A stretch of DNA of 64,000 nt. It comes from Deltaproteobacteria bacterium. Its GTDB lineage: Bacteria; JAGRBM01; JAHCIT01. Position numbers and translations under genes: made by a program. The stretch is from positions 124,001-188,000 of the forward strand of contig JAHCIT010000007.1 of NCBI GenBank assembly GCA_026129095.1, in the 5' to 3' direction. Of the stretch, positions 1,639 through 59,183 are shown one piece after another. The notes under the pieces are model-generated. The model saw only the letters and a program-made list of their open reading frames with translations, did not search any database and was not told where the DNA came from. Numbering within the stretch: the first letter of the stretch is position 1; each line of letters opens with the position of its first letter.

Positions 1639-2544
1639 ATGGAAGGCACCGGCGATATCCGCAAGATTACACTGAAGGCCAGCGGCATGGATTTCCCGGC
1701 GCTGGAGACAGGTTCGGGACCGCTCGTGCTGCTGCTCCACGGATTTCCCGATCATAACCGCACCTGGCGGCTCCAGATGCCTGCACTGGCGGCAGCGGGT
1801 TTCCGCGCCATTGCCCCTGTCATGCGGGGTTACTCCCCTTCCTGCCAGCCCAGAGACAACGATTACCACGTGATCCGCATGGCCGAGGATGTGCTCGGCT
1901 GGATGGACTGCCTTGGCGAGACCAAATGCCATCTCGTCGGACATGACTGGGGTGCCATCGTCACCTATGCGAGCGGCACCATCGCTCCTGACCGGTTCCA
2001 TTCGCTCACGACACTCGCCGTACCGCATCTCCGCCGCATGCCTACCGGATTACGGGAACTGCCCGGCCAGATACGGAACTCCTGGTACATGATCTTCTTC
2101 CAGCTCCGCATTCTTGCAGACGTGATCGTCGAGCGGAACGACTGGGCCTTTATCGAAAGGCTGTGGCGCGACTGGTCCCCGGGATGGCAATGGCCGCCGG
2201 AAGAGATGGCGGAACTCAAGAAGACGTTCGGCCAGCCGGGCGTCAGGAAGGCCGCCCTCAATTATTACCGCGCCTTCTTTGATCCGCTCTCGCAGGCTTC
2301 ACGCGATACCCGAGCCGCCACCACAGCCCGGATCAATGTACCAACGCTTGCCCTCACCGGAGAGGCCGACGGCTGCATGGATACACGCCTTTATGACATC
2401 GTTATGCGTGCGGAAGACTTTCCCGGCGGACTTCAGGTGGAGCGCGTGAAAGGCACCGGGCACTTCCTTCATCAGGAAAATCCCGTCGAAGTGAACCGAC
2501 TTGTCCTCAACTGGATCCGCGCCCACCAGCCGGAGACGAGATAA
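1639..2544 (+). CDS. Alpha/beta hydrolase, epoxide hydrolase / dehalogenase type
   Basis: The 301-residue enzyme carries the epoxide-hydrolase-type signature HGFPD (residues 34-38, oxyanion hole) and GHDWGA with Asp103 as nucleophile instead of serine. The catalytic histidine is His275 in GTGHFLHQE, and an acidic partner probably lies in the EADGCMD segment. A nucleophilic aspartate is characteristic of epoxide hydrolases and haloalkane dehalogenases, which form an ester intermediate; the PD after HGF favours epoxide hydrolases. No signal peptide is seen, so it is cytosolic. An AGGAA ribosome site lies 7 bases before the ATG. The GMC oxidoreductase gene starts 5 bases after its stop, so the two are an operon. 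They may act sequentially on an oxidised lipid or other hydrophobic substrate (inference). Confidence 0.88.
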   Translation: MEGTGDIRKITLKASGMDFPALETGSGPLVLLLHGFPDHNRTWRLQMPALAAAGFRAIAPVMRGYSPSCQPRDNDYHVIRMAEDVLGWMDCLGETKCHLVGHDWGAIVTYASGTIAPDRFHSLTTLAVPHLRRMPTGLRELPGQIRNSWYMIFFQLRILADVIVERNDWAFIERLWRDWSPGWQWPPEEMAELKKTFGQPGVRKAALNYYRAFFDPLSQASRDTRAATTARINVPTLALTGEADGCMDTRLYDIVMRAEDFPGGLQVERVKGTGHFLHQENPVEVNRLVLNWIRAHQPETR

Positions 2545-2549
2545 GCATC

Positions 2550-4448
2550 ATGCCGGCTGGCCTGACTCCTGCCGAACGCCAGATCGCCCTGGCCGTCGGC
2601 CAGGCAGTGCTCCCCGACGGACGGGTCTTCAAGGGCGCAGGTGAACGGACCGTCGAGAGAATCGAGAAGTTCGTCACACACGTCGGCGCCACGGCTGTTT
2701 TCGGGCGCTCCCTGCGCATGCTGGAACTGGCCACTCTACCCGGTCACGGCGCACGATTCTCGCACCTGCCCCGGAACGAACGTGAGGCGTTCCTGGCCGG
2801 ATGGCTGGGCGGGCCCTTACCGTTACGGCTCGCCGCGATGGGCCTCACCACCCCGTTCAAGACCACCCACTTCGACGACCCGGAAGTCTATACCGCGATG
2901 GGCTGTGTCTATGAGTTCCACGGCAAACCCGAGCCACCTGAACGGTGGAGGCAGCAGGTGATCCGGGGGGCCGATGCTGCCGGCAGCGGCGAGATCGAAT
3001 GCGATGTGGTGGTGGTGGGCACGGGTGCTGGCGGCGCGGTTTTCGGCAAGGAACTGGCCGAGCGGGGTCTTGCTGTCGTTTTTATAGAAGAAGGCGAGTG
3101 GCGCGACCGGGACCAGTTCACCGGCCGTTCTATCGAAATGCACCGCCGCCACCACCGGAACGGCGGAGCCACCGGCACCATTGGTAACACCTTCATCGCC
3201 GTCCCAATGGGGCGGCTGGTCGGTGGATCGACCGCCATCAATACCGGAACCTGCTTCCGGACTCCCGACTGGATACTGGAGCGGTGGGTGAACGAGTTCG
3301 GCCTCACCGGTTTCGAGCCAGACACCATGCGGCCCTATTTCGAGCAGGTCGAGCGCGAACTCCAGGTGGAGCCGGGCGATCCGAAATACCTGGGCGGCAT
3401 AGCCCGCGTTGTAGCCCGTGGCTGCGAAAAGCTCGGCTGGTCCCACAAGGTCATCCGCCGCAATGCGCCCGGCTGCGACGGGTCGGGCGTCTGTGACTTC
3501 GGCTGTCCGACCGAGGCGCGGCGATCGACCAACATCTCCTACCTGCCGCCCGCACTGAAGCGCGGTTCCATGCTCTATACCGGGCTTAAGGCCGAAAAGG
3601 TGCGGATTGAAAACGGCCGTGCCGTAGGTATTGAAGCAACGTGCCTCGAAACCGGCAAGATGCTGAAAGTCCGTGCGCGGGCGACGGCACTTGCCTGCGG
3701 AACCATGCTGACGCCTGTGCTGCTCGACCGGCAGGGCATCTGCAACAGCTCCGGCTGGTTGGGCCGGAACCTTTCCGTGCACCCCTCAACCAACTGCTCA
3801 GGGCTGTTCGATGAGGAGATCAGGGGCTACGCCGCGATTCCATCCGGCTACACCTGTGACCACTGGATGCGCGACGGCATCCTGATGAACGGCGCTGGGG
3901 CACCGCTCGATATCGGCCCCATGACATTCCCTTTCATCGGGCGGAAACTGATGGAAGTGATGGAAGCCTACGACCGGGTGGCTGGTTTTGGCTACCTGGT
4001 TACCGACCGGGGCAACGGCCGGATGGTGAAACTCCCCGGCGGACGGCATATCTGGTACTACAACCTCGGTGACTATGAGCTGAAGATGCTGAAGACCGGC
4101 ATGATCCGGACCATTGAGGTGCTTCGCGCTGCCGGGGCGAAAGAGGTGTATCCCTCGCTTCCAAACCATGGCGTTATCCGCTCGGACGCCGACGTGGAAC
4201 GGCTCCGGAAGGCGGATATCAGGCCCCGTGACTATACCCTCGTTGGATTTCACCCGCTCGGGACGACACGGCTGGGCTCCCGCCGGAAGGATTCGGTTCT
4301 CGACCCCGACCACCAAAGCTGGGATGTTCCGGGGCTCTATATCGTTGACGGTGGCGCCGTCCCCACGGCTATCAGCGTCAACTCCCAGATCACCATCATG
4401 ACGCTCGCCACCCGCGCCGCCGAGCGGCTGGCCGGGAAGCTGGGGTGA
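2550..4448 (+). CDS. FAD-dependent GMC-family oxidoreductase (cholesterol / long-chain alcohol oxidase-like)
   Basis: This 632-residue protein has an N-terminal helical region of about 130 residues, resembling the extension of long-chain alcohol oxidases. A Rossmann FAD motif VVVVGTGAGGAVFGKELAE follows at about residues 150-168. Next comes the family motif CDGSGVCDFGCPTEARRS, then YLPPAL. The C-terminal GMC motif is FHPLGTTRLG, then VPGLYIVDGGAVPTAISVNS. The histidine of FHPLG and the asparagine of SVNS are the expected catalytic pair for alcohol oxidation. The length and cysteine-rich motif fit the fatty-alcohol/sterol oxidase branch better than glucose or choline oxidases. It is probably translationally coupled to the preceding hydrolase. 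The substrate is unknown; a membrane-derived alcohol or sterol is plausible. Confidence 0.9.
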   Translation: MPAGLTPAERQIALAVGQAVLPDGRVFKGAGERTVERIEKFVTHVGATAVFGRSLRMLELATLPGHGARFSHLPRNEREAFLAGWLGGPLPLRLAAMGLTTPFKTTHFDDPEVYTAMGCVYEFHGKPEPPERWRQQVIRGADAAGSGEIECDVVVVGTGAGGAVFGKELAERGLAVVFIEEGEWRDRDQFTGRSIEMHRRHHRNGGATGTIGNTFIAVPMGRLVGGSTAINTGTCFRTPDWILERWVNEFGLTGFEPDTMRPYFEQVERELQVEPGDPKYLGGIARVVARGCEKLGWSHKVIRRNAPGCDGSGVCDFGCPTEARRSTNISYLPPALKRGSMLYTGLKAEKVRIENGRAVGIEATCLETGKMLKVRARATALACGTMLTPVLLDRQGICNSSGWLGRNLSVHPSTNCSGLFDEEIRGYAAIPSGYTCDHWMRDGILMNGAGAPLDIGPMTFPFIGRKLMEVMEAYDRVAGFGYLVTDRGNGRMVKLPGGRHIWYYNLGDYELKMLKTGMIRTIEVLRAAGAKEVYPSLPNHGVIRSDADVERLRKADIRPRDYTLVGFHPLGTTRLGSRRKDSVLDPDHQSWDVPGLYIVDGGAVPTAISVNSQITIMTLATRAAERLAGKLG

Positions 4449-53738: not shown

Positions 53739-54653
53739 TTAACTGACCGCTTCCCTCAATGCCGAGGAGACGTCGGGAAACCGGAAGGTATAGCCGGCAG
53801 AAAGCGCAGCCTTCGGTTCCGCCCGGGTGCTGGAGAGCACGATGGTGGACTGCTCGCCCAGCGCTGTCTTGAGGACAAAACCAGGAACCGGAAACCAGGA
53901 AGGCCGGTTCATGACGCGGCCCAGTTCCCGGCAGAAGGTCTTGAGCTGTACTGGCTCTGGCGCACAGACATTCATCACAGAAGGTGCACCTGCGTTGTTC
54001 AAGGCAAACATGACGAGACCGGCCACGTCCTCCACATGAACCCACGGAACCCACTGGTTCCCGGACCCGATGTGTCCACCTGCAAACATCCTGAACGGGA
54101 GCGCCATCTTCTCCAGCGCTCCGCCGCCACGACCCACCGCCATGCCAATCCTCAAGCTAACGACTCGGACGCCCAGTTTTTCTGCTTGCCGGGCGGCCGC
54201 CTCCCAGGCGATACAGAGGTCCGTCAGGAACCCCGCACCCGGCGCGCTGGACTCATCCAGGAGTTCATCACCACGGTCGCCATAAAAACCGACCGCTGAG
54301 GCCGCTACAAAAGTCCTGGGTTTTTCGTTCATCCTCGATATCGCCTGGACCAGTGTCTGCGTGCCAATAGTGCGGCTTTCAACCAGCGCCCGTTTGCGGC
54401 TTTCGGTCCAGCGGCCCGCACCTACGTTTTCACCGGCAAGATGAACGATGGCGGCGCAGCCTTCTATAGCCTCGGCCAGTTCTTCCGGGCTCATGGACGC
54501 TGACCACGGCGCACACCGGACGCGGCGGTCCATCTGGAATGCGGCTTTCACTGGATCACGGGAAAGGACCACCGTTTCAAGTCCCGCATCGAGGAGCCGT
54601 TTGACCACCACTTTCCCGATAAACCCGGTCCCGCCGGTTACAGCTATACGCAT
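53739..54653 (-). CDS. TIGR01777-type NAD-dependent epimerase (YfcH-like)
   Basis: The 304-residue protein starts MRIAVTGGTGFIGKVVVKRL and contains IVHLAGENVGAGRWTESRKR and a strand with SAVGFYGDRGDELLDESS. It also has LRIGMAVGRGGGALEKM and NVCAPEPVQLKTFCREL, the blocks that define the TIGR01777/YfcH family of extended SDRs. The C-terminus carries a DUF1731-like region (LGEQSTIVLSSTRAEPKAAL). The biochemical role of this conserved family is still unclear. It is upstream of, and co-transcribed with, the alpha/beta hydrolase, and divergent from the CBS gene. Confidence 0.92.
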   Translation of the reverse strand: MRIAVTGGTGFIGKVVVKRLLDAGLETVVLSRDPVKAAFQMDRRVRCAPWSASMSPEELAEAIEGCAAIVHLAGENVGAGRWTESRKRALVESRTIGTQTLVQAISRMNEKPRTFVAASAVGFYGDRGDELLDESSAPGAGFLTDLCIAWEAAARQAEKLGVRVVSLRIGMAVGRGGGALEKMALPFRMFAGGHIGSGNQWVPWVHVEDVAGLVMFALNNAGAPSVMNVCAPEPVQLKTFCRELGRVMNRPSWFPVPGFVLKTALGEQSTIVLSSTRAEPKAALSAGYTFRFPDVSSALREAVS

Positions 54654-54765
54654 GGTGGATATTCCTACCTTTCCTCCCTGGCACGGGCAACGCCGGACGT
54701 CCTGAGCAACGTCATACCCATTGGCCGTGTGCCCGGCTAATAAAGCCGGTCAGAAGGAGTCCCGC

Positions 54766-55176
54766 ATGAGCAAGGGCATACCACCCGTACACAAATACAT
54801 GACCACCAGTCCCATCACGATCGGCCATGACCAGAAGATCGTCAAAGCCGAGGAGATCATGCACGCCAACCGCATCCGGCACCTGCCAGTGCTGAAGGGC
54901 GGGAAATTTACCGGGATCCTCACCGACCGTGATATCAAGTTTGTTCAGGGTCTGCGGGATCTGGATGCAAGTACACTCGTTGTGGATGACGTAGTACGCG
55001 AGCAGGCGTTCACCGTCGATGCAGAGTCGCCGCTGGATCAGGTGGCATCGGAGATGGCCGAACTGAAGGTGGGATCCGCCATCGTTACGCAGAATGGCAA
55101 GCTGGTCGGCATATTCACAACGGTAGATGCCATGCAGGCGCTCGCCGAATTGCTCCGTACGCGGCTTGGACACTGA
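54766..55176 (+). CDS. CBS-domain protein
   Basis: The 136-residue protein is made of two CBS motifs: VHKYMTTSPITIGHDQKIVK, then AEEIMHANRIRHLPVLKGGK and GILTDRDIKF in the first half; VREQAFTVDAESPLDQVASE, then LKVGSAIVTQNGKLVGIFTT in the second. Such pairs (Bateman modules) bind adenine nucleotides. It has no fused partner domain. The ATG at 54766 has an AAGGAG ribosome site 7 bases upstream; an in-frame start 45 bases earlier is less supported. The gene is divergent from the TIGR01777 epimerase. Confidence 0.93.
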   Translation: MSKGIPPVHKYMTTSPITIGHDQKIVKAEEIMHANRIRHLPVLKGGKFTGILTDRDIKFVQGLRDLDASTLVVDDVVREQAFTVDAESPLDQVASEMAELKVGSAIVTQNGKLVGIFTTVDAMQALAELLRTRLGH

Positions 55177-55257
55177 TACCGGCCTTTGCGGTAGACACCA
55201 TCCGCGCAGTCCGGCACAATACACACACGGCCCCGGAATGAAGGCCGTACGTGTATT

Positions 55258-56043
55258 ATGGGCAAAAGCGGCGCAGCTTCCTTTCAGGACCAGAATATCA
55301 TTGTCACAGGCGGTGCAAGCGGCATCGGACTGGCCGCCGCTGTGGCACTGGAAGCCCGCGGTGCACGGATGGCACTGCTGGATGTGAATGCTGCCGCACT
55401 GGAACAGTCCCGGGAACGGTTCCGGCAACCTGAACGCGTTGTGACGCGCACTTTGGATGTGGCCCAGGCAGAATCAGTCGAGGCTGCGGTAAAAAGCGTA
55501 GACGGCGAAATGGGGCCCGTGGATATCCTGCTTGCGTCAGCCGGTGTTATGGAGGCCGGTCCGTTTTTGGAGTTGACGCCGGACGAGATCGACCGCCTCG
55601 TATCGATCAATGTAACCGGTACGGCAAACGCGATCCGGGCCGTGCTCCCCTCCATGCGCGAACGGCGGCAGGGACGCATTATTACGGTGGCAAGCGTGCT
55701 CGGCCTGCATGCTTTCCGCGAGTTCGCCGTCTATGCAGCGACGAAGTTCGCCGTAATCAATCTTACCGAGTCGCTCGCCAGCGAAAACCTTGATTACGGC
55801 ATCAAGTTCCAGGTTCTCTGTCCGCCTGGCACCGACACCACACTCGTCGCCGGCTTGAAGCACAGGCCAAAATCAATGGAAAAATTTGGTCTCGCTCCCG
55901 TAGACGCCGTGGTCACTGGGCTTTTGGAGGGCATCGGCAAGGAAGAGTTCCTTATCTTGGTCACCCCGGAAACCCGTGCCCTTCATCAGCTTCAGCGTTT
56001 TGCTCCGCCCCTTTTCGACCAGTTCGTGAAGTGGGTTTCCTGA
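55258..56043 (+). CDS. Classical short-chain dehydrogenase/reductase
   Basis: The 261-residue protein has the classical SDR signature: IIVTGGASGIGLAAAVAL, NVTGTANAI, the catalytic serine region TVASVLG and the YAATKFAVINL catalytic Tyr-x3-Lys. Classical family features are complete, so it is an active oxidoreductase with NAD(P). The substrate, possibly a ketone, sterol or fatty-acid derivative, is unknown. It lies 81 bases after the CBS gene. The start was chosen at the ATG 55258, with a weak ribosome site. Confidence 0.91.
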   Translation: MGKSGAASFQDQNIIVTGGASGIGLAAAVALEARGARMALLDVNAAALEQSRERFRQPERVVTRTLDVAQAESVEAAVKSVDGEMGPVDILLASAGVMEAGPFLELTPDEIDRLVSINVTGTANAIRAVLPSMRERRQGRIITVASVLGLHAFREFAVYAATKFAVINLTESLASENLDYGIKFQVLCPPGTDTTLVAGLKHRPKSMEKFGLAPVDAVVTGLLEGIGKEEFLILVTPETRALHQLQRFAPPLFDQFVKWVS

Positions 56044-56049
56044 AGCCGC

Positions 56050-56103
56050 TTCTCCACACGATTGCCACCTTATCCCCAATAATTCCCCTACAGATGTGGA
56101 TAA
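56050..56103. promoter_or_regulatory. Cluster of three DnaA-box-like sites
   Basis: TTCTCCACA (56050-56058) and TTATCCCCA (56070-56078) each differ by one base from the DnaA box TTATCCACA. TGTGGATAA (56095-56103) is an exact box on the other strand. Three in 54 bases is more than expected by chance. No dnaA gene is visible, so the function is open. Confidence 0.5.
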
Positions 56104-56204
56104 ACTGTGTTTGGGATGCCCTGATTTAGGCATTTTAACATACTGAAATCCCTAGTGGTTTCAAGTGTGCGTGAAACTTTACAATCCCCAATCCAAAAAA
56201 ACCG

Positions 56205-56233
56205 TTGACTTACTGATTGGTCAAACAGTTAAC
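56205..56233 (+). promoter_or_regulatory. Weak promoter candidate for dxs
   Basis: TTGACT (56205-56210) matches the -35 consensus at 5 of 6 bases. After 17 bases comes GTTAAC (56228-56233), only 3 of 6 for the -10. A transcript would start near 56240 and carry the hairpin leader before the ATG at 56302. Confidence 0.4.
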
Positions 56234-56245
56234 TGCGGGCCTTGT

Positions 56246-56278
56246 GCTGATTATCAGCCAATCAGGGCTGGTTTTTTT
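56246..56278 (+). promoter_or_regulatory. Attenuator-like pair of alternative hairpins in the dxs leader
   Basis: GCTGATTATCAGC (56246-56258) forms one 5-base hairpin. CAGCC-AATCAG-GGCTG (56255-56270) forms a second, followed by G and seven T, the form of an intrinsic terminator. The two share 56255-56258, so only one can form at a time. The dxs ribosome site (GAGGAG, about 56279-56284) follows at once. No known riboswitch family is recognised. Confidence 0.5.
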
Positions 56279-56301
56279 GAGGAGACAACGACAGTAACAC
56301 C

Positions 56302-58236
56302 ATGAGTGCTGCCACAAGTACCGACGAACGCTACGAACTGCTCGACGCCATCAACTCGCCGACCGATCTGCGCCGGTTGCCGGAATCCGAGCTTCCCAAA
56401 CTGGCCGAAGAGTGCCGCCGGTTCCTCATTCATGCGGTCGCCAAGACGGGCGGACACCTCGCCTCGTCGCTAGGCGCCTGCGAACTCACCATCGCCCTCC
56501 ACTACGTCTATGAGACTCCCGAAGACCGGCTCGTCTGGGACGTGGGTCACCAGGCCTATGTCCACAAGCTGCTTACCGGACGCCGGGAGATGTTCCCCAC
56601 ACTCCGTCAGAAGGGCGGCATGTCCGGTTTCCCCTCCCGGTTCGAAAGCTCCTACGACACGTTCGGTGTCGGTCATGGCGGAACCTCGATTTCGGCCGCT
56701 GCCGGCATGAACGAAGGGCTGCATCACCAGAAGAAGCGGCGCCACACGGTCGCAGTGATCGGCGATGGTTCGATCACCTCCGGCATGGCATTCGAGGCGC
56801 TCAATCATGCCGGTGAAGTGGGGCGCCCATTCACCGTTGTCCTGAACGACAACGAGTGGGCGATCTCGCGCAACGTGGGGGCGCTCTCCCGTACCCTGAG
56901 CCGACGAATCGTGACCGAGGATTTTATCCAGACAAAGGATCTGGTTCGCCGCTGGGTTCACGAGAAGCTCGGCGCGAAGATGGAAGACCGAATCCGCCAT
57001 ATCGAGGATGCCGTCAAAAGCGTCGTGCTCCCGGTCTCGCCGCTGTTCGAGGCGTTCGGCTTCGAATATCTGGGCCCCGTGGATGGGCATAACGTTCATG
57101 CCCTGGTGAAGGCGCTGCGGGCCGCCAAGGAAAACCACAAGCCTGTGCTGCTCCATATCCTCACCCGCAAGGGCAAGGGGTGGGAGGTTTCCGAAGCCGA
57201 TCCGCTCGTTTACCACGGCCTAGGCAAGTACGACCCCAAGTCGGGAGAGCGTGCCCCGGCTGCTCCGGCCCCCGACCCGTGGCAAAAGCACTTCGCCCGT
57301 GCGGCGATTGATCTGGCGAAGCAGGATTCCCGTATCGTCGCCATCACCGGTGCGATGGCGACGGGAACCAGTTGTGACGTATTCCAGAAGGAGTTTCCCG
57401 ACCGCTGCTACGACGTCGGCATGTGCGAGCAGCATGCCGTGACGCTGGCGGCGGGGCTCGCCTGCGAAGGCATGCGCCCCATTGCAGCGATCTACTCGAC
57501 GTTCCTCCAGCGCGCCTATGACCAGGTGGTTCACGACGTCTGTATCCAGAACCTGCCCGTACTGTTCTGCATGGACCGCGCTGGCCTGGCTGGTGATGAC
57601 GGCGTGACGCACCAGGGGATGTTCGACATCGCCTACCTGCGCTGCCTGCCGAACATGGTCTGCATGGCCCCCAAGGACGAGAACGAACTCAGGAACATGA
57701 TGTACACGGCGACCAAGCTCGACTGCCCCTCGTCCGTCCGGTATCCGCGTGGACCCGCCATGGGGATCCCCTACGACAAGGAGTTCTCCCAGATCCCGGT
57801 TGGCAAGGCCGAAATCCTTCGCGAGGGTAAGGATGTGACGCTTCTGGCACTGGGCCACCAGGTGCCGGAAGCAGTGAAGGCCGCTGAACTTCTCGCTGCC
57901 GAAGGGGTCCAGACAACCGTGGTGAATGCCCGGTTTATCAAGCCGCTGGACCGCGAGACGATAATCGAAACCGCTACCGCTACCGGGCGGCTTGTGACTA
58001 TCGAGGAGGCGGCCCTGATGGGTGGCTTCGGATCGGCAGTTTGTGAACTTTTGATGGACGAAGGCGTCCACAGGGATATCGACATCAGACGGCTCGGGGT
58101 CTCTGACCGGTTTGTCGAGCATGGCACCCAGGCCGCCTGGCGTGAGGAGTTCAAGCTCACGGCCCCAAGGATTGCCGAAACAGTCCGGCAGATGATCCGC
58201 AAGACACGGCTCCGGAGCGTCAAGGACGCGGGCTAA
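56302..58236 (+). CDS. dxs: 1-deoxy-D-xylulose-5-phosphate synthase
   Basis: DXS joins pyruvate and glyceraldehyde 3-phosphate, the first step of the MEP isoprenoid pathway, using thiamine diphosphate. The 644-residue protein has the N-terminal blocks KTGGHLASSLGACELTIALHY, DVGHQAYVHKLLTGRR and FGVGHGGTSISAAAGM. The cofactor motif is GDGSITSGMAFEALNHAG with NDNEWAIS. The central and C-terminal blocks are DVGMCEQHAVTLAAGLACEG, AGLAGDDGVTHQGMFDIAYL and SVRYPRG. The usual MSIS after DNE is WAIS here. The C-terminus overlaps the amidotransferase gene on the other strand by 17 bases. ispE lies 41 kb away. The region upstream is unusually structured. Confidence 0.95.
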   Translation: MSAATSTDERYELLDAINSPTDLRRLPESELPKLAEECRRFLIHAVAKTGGHLASSLGACELTIALHYVYETPEDRLVWDVGHQAYVHKLLTGRREMFPTLRQKGGMSGFPSRFESSYDTFGVGHGGTSISAAAGMNEGLHHQKKRRHTVAVIGDGSITSGMAFEALNHAGEVGRPFTVVLNDNEWAISRNVGALSRTLSRRIVTEDFIQTKDLVRRWVHEKLGAKMEDRIRHIEDAVKSVVLPVSPLFEAFGFEYLGPVDGHNVHALVKALRAAKENHKPVLLHILTRKGKGWEVSEADPLVYHGLGKYDPKSGERAPAAPAPDPWQKHFARAAIDLAKQDSRIVAITGAMATGTSCDVFQKEFPDRCYDVGMCEQHAVTLAAGLACEGMRPIAAIYSTFLQRAYDQVVHDVCIQNLPVLFCMDRAGLAGDDGVTHQGMFDIAYLRCLPNMVCMAPKDENELRNMMYTATKLDCPSSVRYPRGPAMGIPYDKEFSQIPVGKAEILREGKDVTLLALGHQVPEAVKAAELLAAEGVQTTVVNARFIKPLDRETIIETATATGRLVTIEEAALMGGFGSAVCELLMDEGVHRDIDIRRLGVSDRFVEHGTQAAWREEFKLTAPRIAETVRQMIRKTRLRSVKDAG

Positions 58237-58966
58237 GCCCCCCGGACTTTACCAGTCCAGCCCAGCCGCCAAAGAGGATGCGGCTGATGGATTCAAGCCC
58301 GGGCAGGTAACTGGCGCGGCCATCGAGCAGCCGTTCCCGCGGTATCCGCTCGGCCTGAAGTTCATCGTCGAAGGCGCGGGTCATCCCTGCTATCAGGTCA
58401 CTATCCACCTCCAGATGAAACTGGATTCCCCATACATTCCTTCCGTACCGGAACGCCTGGTTGGGCGTCATCTCTGACGAAGCGAGATGGACCGCTCCAT
58501 CTGGCAGTTCCAGCCGGTCACCGTGCCAGTGGAAGGCTACGAAATTCCGTTCGGGTACACGGCTCCAGAGAGGATCATCTGAAGCGTCACCAGTAAGCTT
58601 CACCGGGTACCACCCGATCTCCTTGGCCGGCCCGGGAGCGACATTGCCGCCAAAGGCTGCGGCTATGAGCTGAGCCCCCAAGCATACACCCAGAACAGGC
58701 AGGTTTTCCTTTTCCATCTGGCGGATCAGGTTCATCTCGTCCGCAAGAAACGGATACTTGTCCGTTTCATAGACTCCCATCGGACCGCCCATAACGATCA
58801 GCCCCGCAGCGCCGCCGCCCAGGTCCGGCACGGGCTCTCCCGCCCAGGTCCGCACATAGCGGATTCCGACGCCCTTCCGTTCCAGTTCCAGTGCGATCAG
58901 TCCCGGGTTTTCACACCTCGCGTGAAGCAGGCACCAGACAAAAGGGCGGCTGGAAGAAGGACTCAT
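58220..58966 (-). CDS. Class I glutamine amidotransferase (GMP synthase-like)
   Basis: The 248-residue protein is a stand-alone GATase1 domain with the oxyanion strand AGLIVMGGPMGVYE, nucleophile Cys95 in VLGVCLGAQLIAAAFGG and the catalytic His-Glu in GIQFHLEVD. The EIGWYPVKLT segment is typical of the GMP synthase-like amidotransferase family found in many bacteria, which lack the synthase part. These may hydrolyse gamma-glutamyl compounds, but the substrate is unknown. The ATG at 58966 is favoured; upstream in-frame codons add an unrelated leader. The gene is convergent with dxs and overlaps its last 17 bases. Confidence 0.9.
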   Translation of the reverse strand: MSPSSSRPFVWCLLHARCENPGLIALELERKGVGIRYVRTWAGEPVPDLGGGAAGLIVMGGPMGVYETDKYPFLADEMNLIRQMEKENLPVLGVCLGAQLIAAAFGGNVAPGPAKEIGWYPVKLTGDASDDPLWSRVPERNFVAFHWHGDRLELPDGAVHLASSEMTPNQAFRYGRNVWGIQFHLEVDSDLIAGMTRAFDDELQAERIPRERLLDGRASYLPGLESISRILFGGWAGLVKSGGLSPRP

Positions 58967-59183
58967 GGGACAAAGTCTAGCCGTAGCCGCCAAGCGCCAC
59001 AAAAGGCCATATTCGCCATAATAGATACGATAGGTATACTCATCATATTTATAATAAATGTAATAAATACAGCTAGTTACAATTTTTATATTGACTGATA
59101 TCTATAATGTAATACAACATAAACAGACCGATGCCGCAACCCGTCAAGGTCGCGGAGAAGCAAGTCCAGAAGGAAAACAAATC
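58967..59183 (+). other. AT-rich leader before the desaturase gene
   Basis: From about 59010 the sequence is strongly A+T rich, with no gene. It contains TATAAT at 59050-59055 and 59103-59108, and TATACT at 59035-59040, but no well-spaced -35 partner. A perfect palindrome ATTTAT-A-ATAAAT lies at 59047-59059. AGAAGGAAAAC before the ATG at 59184 is the ribosome site. Such a leader would suit temperature- or membrane-state-dependent regulation of a desaturase (inference). Confidence 0.5.

Follow-up and report, generated by a model that had tools for sequence, protein, structure and literature searches.

The leader of dxs is predicted to form a single composite hairpin of the intrinsic terminator type, whose stem abuts a seven-U tract placed directly before the ribosome-binding site. 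This element is tentatively proposed to act as a constitutive attenuator. It is most likely either a weak 5'-UTR intrinsic terminator, unregulated or externally modulated, or a hairpin without function, the latter being nearly as likely as a partial brake. Unless RNA mapping reveals regulated termination, it is an ordinary leader element, and a dedicated sensor is not supported.

Layout and predicted fold of the leader

The genome surveyed comprises 3.67 Mb in 23 contigs; positions refer to the window, i.e. the whole 64-kb stretch of DNA that was analysed. The dxs gene starts with the ATG at 56302 and is preceded, across a spacer of 258 nt, by a short-chain dehydrogenase gene on the same strand that ends at 56043. 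On its 3' side lies a convergent amidotransferase gene (58220-59002, minus strand). Because of these two neighbours, dxs looks monocistronic. The features of the locus are the following.

56180-56185, plus strand: TACAAT, possible -10 element (5/6) with a poor -35, GTTTCA at 56158 (3/6); consensus only
56205-56234, plus strand: TTGACT (5/6) with a poor -10, GTTAAC or TTAACT (3/6); consensus only
56238-56269, plus strand: composite terminator-like hairpin; minimum-energy fold, -15.9 kcal/mol for 56236-56278
56246-56258, plus strand: hairpin 1 of the initial annotation, GCTGA-TTA-TCAGC, tip of the composite hairpin; sequence reading and fold
56253-56272, plus strand: hairpin 2 of the initial annotation, ATCAGCC-aatcag-GGCTGGT, compact alternative stem of 7 pairs, -9.4 kcal/mol; consensus scan
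56272-56278, plus strand: T7 run (U tract); sequence reading
56279-56284, plus strand: GAGGAG, likely ribosome-binding site of dxs; sequence and position relative to the ATG
56302-58236, plus strand: dxs, 1-deoxy-D-xylulose-5-phosphate synthase, 644 aa; ORF with Pfam DXP_synthase_N, Transket_pyr and Transketolase_C

The two short overlapping inverted repeats described in the initial annotation were recovered, although they share five paired bases (56254-56258) and not four. The seven T after the second hairpin and the ribosome site immediately behind them were read as it had reported.

For 56236-56278, the minimum-energy and centroid folds are one and the same hairpin (-15.9 kcal/mol). An outer stem (56238-56244/56263-56269) encloses an inner hairpin (56246-56250/56254-56258), and an extra predicted pair, 56236-56271, closes the structure beside the T run. 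The folding z-score of this segment is -2.7, with an equally good fold in 1 of 200 shuffles; that of 56253-56278 is -3.3, with none in 200. Hairpin 2 folds at -9.4 kcal/mol by itself and, when forced within 56236-56279, at -11.2 versus -15.9 kcal/mol for the best fold. Both forms place the stem directly against T7 in the folds, so that a stable stem followed by a U-rich tract, as in 5'-UTR intrinsic terminators, is found in the composite and in the compact arrangement alike. Folds of a longer transcript, 56236-56340, are uninformative since the preferred and forced forms are only 1-3 kcal/mol apart (-24.6, -23.7 and -22.0 kcal/mol).

The initial annotation had presented the two hairpins as alternative pairings. 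That one of them is non-terminating was not confirmed, and folding of the leader yields one composite hairpin rather than two alternatives. Hairpin 1 is predicted to belong to the terminator-like form of lower energy and not to be an antiterminator, because in either arrangement the U tract immediately follows a stem. Its nesting as the tip of a longer stem removes the main argument for a switch, and the two-hairpin switch was therefore rejected. A pair of overlapping inverted repeats ahead of a T run does not necessarily form a switch; the two may nest into one terminator stem.

Transcription would start near 56192 if TACAAT is used and near 56240 if TTGACT is used, both being consensus-based candidates; a promoter scan at its set threshold found neither of these weak candidates. 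Any dxs promoter located upstream of the hairpin must read through it, which makes a leader terminator plausible. We infer the following course for the proposed brake. RNA polymerase initiating upstream would meet the composite hairpin about 40-90 nt into the transcript, transcribe it and pause on the U tract. A fraction of the complexes would release an RNA ending near 56275-56279, and the remaining transcripts would read through and express dxs. The brake would be fixed, or tuned solely in trans by Nus factors, transcription speed or an RNA-binding protein. Should termination indeed occur at this site, dxs would be one more gene braked by a leader terminator, and entry into the isoprenoid pathway would be set at the RNA level.

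As side observations made by eye, overlapping TGAAA/TTTCA dyads are present at 56139-56185, before TACAAT, and the dxs spacer of a second genome of the phylum, G001, also contains TTTCAAG-N6-TGAAA (at about 1180-1197 of locus L113).

Chance expectation and distribution among dxs leaders

When the 258-nt spacer was dinucleotide-shuffled, 12 of 2000 shuffles contained a terminator-like site that matched or beat the real one (cut-off -13.4 by the closed-hairpin energy measure), and none of the 2000 did when a 7-T run was required. A consensus scan of 54500-58600 returned two terminator-like sites versus 3.3 expected. The rate in the genome was estimated on a 464-kb sample made of the window and 20 stretches of 20 kb, with 379 ORFs from a simple caller. 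In this sample 179 terminator-like candidates reach -7 kcal/mol. Five of them lie at most 60 nt upstream of a start, versus 4.4 expected from the overall density. Nine candidates have at least 7 T, of which one, that of dxs, is at most 60 nt upstream of a start, versus 0.22 expected. Across the 379 genes, one such leader was seen versus 0.2-0.9 expected, about as the overall density predicts; these expected counts assume a uniform density and would be raised by the AT-rich composition of spacers, which they ignore. The excess at the dxs leader is local and modest, at a site picked after the fact.

With a d'Aubenton-Carafa-type score, the dxs site obtains 8.8 (positive) and ranks 19th among the 179 candidates. 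Of the 37 candidates with a positive score, no other lies 60 nt or less upstream of a start. Fourteen of the 37 fall inside ORFs on the sense strand, and the score therefore gives many false positives here. Intrinsic termination is probably in use by this genome, since classic hairpin-plus-T sites are found after stop codons (e.g. -30.7 and -33.6 kcal/mol). Overall, the dxs leader is a respectable, not an outstanding, terminator candidate.

Two genomes of the phylum were compared, the source genome (G000) and G001, which belong to the same order. The DXS protein of G001 is 58% identical over residues 8-528. Its 305-nt dxs spacer has no T run of at least five within 150 nt of the start, the only such run being a T6 that closely follows the preceding gene, 275 nt ahead of the start. 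The terminator-like element is accordingly absent from the dxs leader of this one relative, which is too distant to align. Among 107 other dxs leaders, that of G001 included, a terminator-like site occurs within 150 nt in three and within 60 nt in one. This survey covered 107 of the 109 loci L004-L112, leaving out L006 (a minus-strand match near a contig end) and L067 (upstream sequence shorter than 150 nt). For 67 loci the first matched query residue was set to 12 regardless of the value given, and a rule chose the start codons, which may have shifted some leaders by a few codons. In general, dxs genes do not carry a leader terminator.

No hairpin-plus-T-run was seen by eye in the ispG, ispH and dxr leaders of this genome, and that of dxs occurs only once in it, the best other similarity being a 17-nt chance match. 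A leader shared by MEP-pathway genes was rejected on these two grounds. In the literature searched, titles and abstract openings revealed no dxs attenuator, which is no proof that none has been published.

Weighing of the alternative readings

The dxs hairpin may have no terminator function at all. Stem and T run could be a chance combination in an AT-rich spacer, or the stem could act in the 5' UTR solely on mRNA stability or on how accessible the ribosome site is. This is quite possible, and is favored by the near-expected number of terminator-like sites ahead of the 379 starts, by the single similar leader within 60 nt among 107, by the lack of the element in G001 and by the predicted folds of longer transcripts, in which the T run may pair with the ribosome site. 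Several of these observations, together with the weakness of the stem beside the strong terminator-like sites of the genome itself, count equally against the constitutive brake. In its favor are T7 and the stem directly before the ribosome site and the composite fold, with both forms abutting T7; a fold unusually stable for its composition and the failure of all 2000 shuffles to reach an equal stem with T7 argue against a functionless hairpin. Control by a ligand, a protein or an sRNA appears unlikely. Such a conditional attenuator would use a start near 56192, with two upstream segments as competing partners for the terminator arms or for the U tract.

56194-56203, plus strand: CAAAAAAACC, the A7 tract, perfect 10-nt inverted complement of GGTTTTTTTG (56270-56279); repeat search
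56213-56221, plus strand: CTGATTGGT, upstream segment tried as antiterminator, pairing with 56257-56265 (GCCAATCAG); fold

The upstream sequence includes segments perfectly complementary to the loop, arm and U tract of the terminator, as well as TACAAT at 56180, and the 10-nt repeat is uncommon (of 1000 spacer shuffles, 19 have an inverted repeat of at least 10 nt). However, a mutually exclusive, non-terminating fold was not found. No upstream segment other than CTGATTGGT was found that can pair across the hairpin, and the helix of CTGATTGGT with GCCAATCAG leaves the leader 56190-56279 at -22.6 versus -29.5 kcal/mol for the best fold, i.e. 6.9 kcal/mol less stable. A transcript starting upstream could allow CAAAAAAACC to pair with the U tract, but the predicted helix of CAAAAAAACC with GGTTTTTTTG belongs to the best fold alongside the composite hairpin and is compatible with it, not exclusive. 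An aptamer is also lacking, in agreement with the initial annotation: Rfam gave no match at gathering score in the 64-kb window and none up to an E-value of 10 in 56000-56420, and a known riboswitch or RNA family was rejected. In the attenuation or riboswitch-platform geometry that had been put forward, the hairpin, T7 and ribosome site are real and a leader terminator is plausible, but the switch logic is not supported. Very improbable is a conditional attenuator of undescribed type controlling dxs as the MEP entry enzyme, in which the A tract and CTGATTGGT would remodel the composite terminator upon an isoprenoid- or cell-cycle-linked signal, beside a DnaA-box-like cluster and in a sparsely sampled phylum. 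The least probable reading is a short leader frame whose translation would block hairpin formation and couple termination to ribosomes. Frames from TTG 56217 or GTG 56244 do cross the hairpin and stop at 56297, before the ATG at 56302, but they have no ATG start, no ribosome site and no run of regulatory amino acids. No translatable frame with regulatory codons was found among these GTG/TTG frames, and the leader-peptide reading was rejected as poor.

It is distinctly improbable that the locus functions mainly at the DNA level, with the dyads in 56050-56235 acting as protein-binding sites (the DnaA-box-like cluster and the TetR-type-looking ACTGATTGGTCA and CAGTTAACTG) and the hairpin being incidental. 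Three DnaA-box-like sites in 54 nt and the occurrence of ACTGANNGGTCA upstream of dxs in G001 as well speak for it. Against it, ACTGANNGGTCA does not outnumber its reversed control in genome-wide counts (7 vs 10 in G000 and 4 vs 8 in G001), the shared 15-mer was reached in 4 of 60 shuffles, and the G001 dxs leader has no DnaA-box-like site.

The region upstream of the hairpin gave further observations. The three DnaA-box-like 9-mers at 56050-56103 are TTCTCCACA, TTATCCCCA and, on the minus strand, an exact TTATCCACA. The 464-kb sample contains 65 sites of this kind, and nowhere else in it do three or more fall within 100 nt. No GC-skew flip was detected in the window or in the stretches 100001-120000 and 188001-208000 of contig C7. 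A replication origin at the cluster was rejected in view of this and of the spacer beside dnaA, which is rich in such sites. This spacer, between dnaA and its divergent neighbour (2392-3051 of locus L115, G000 contig C2), holds four of the five DnaA-box-like sites of that locus and is likely the replication origin. ACTGANNGGTCA, which looks like a TetR-family operator, is found ahead of dxs in both G000 (56212-56223) and G001 (about 1151-1162 of locus L113); a TetR-type operator common to G000 and G001 was rejected, the motif not exceeding controls. The 10-nt inverted repeat CAAAAAAACC/GGTTTTTTTG bounds an 86-nt segment, and both of its copies in the window are here, with 0.11 expected. A mobile or repeated element bounded by it was rejected, the segment being single-copy in the genome.

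Thiamine state had been suggested as a signal. The single TPP riboswitch match of the genome (67.5 bits, cut-off 54.3; 1501-1609 of locus L150, minus strand, G000 contig C1) is directly followed by an ORF that reads by eye as ThiC. Thiamine control exists in this genome but not at dxs, and TPP control of dxs was rejected.

Comparison with known systems

The dxs site shares a stem and a T run with the 3' intrinsic terminators of its own genome (e.g. loci L131 and L139). Their stems, of about -23 to -34 kcal/mol, follow stop codons, whereas the dxs site is weaker and precedes a start codon. Like trp-type attenuators and riboswitches such as TPP (RF00059), the dxs leader places a terminator-like hairpin with a U tract before the ribosome site; unlike them, it has no aptamer, convincing antiterminator or leader peptide. 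Closer in arrangement is the 5' UTR of ispU (uppS) in Escherichia coli, where a 6-bp stem followed by eight U yields a terminated RNA, IspZ, that was detected by both Term-seq and northern (PMC7815308). That gene encodes undecaprenyl diphosphate synthase in another bacterium, and termination is proven there while it is predicted here. Both leaders nevertheless belong to isoprenoid-pathway genes and combine a short stem and a U run in the 5' UTR, with a short RNA as the expected product (PMC7815308). In its arrangement, the ispU leader is a well-supported relative of the dxs leader.
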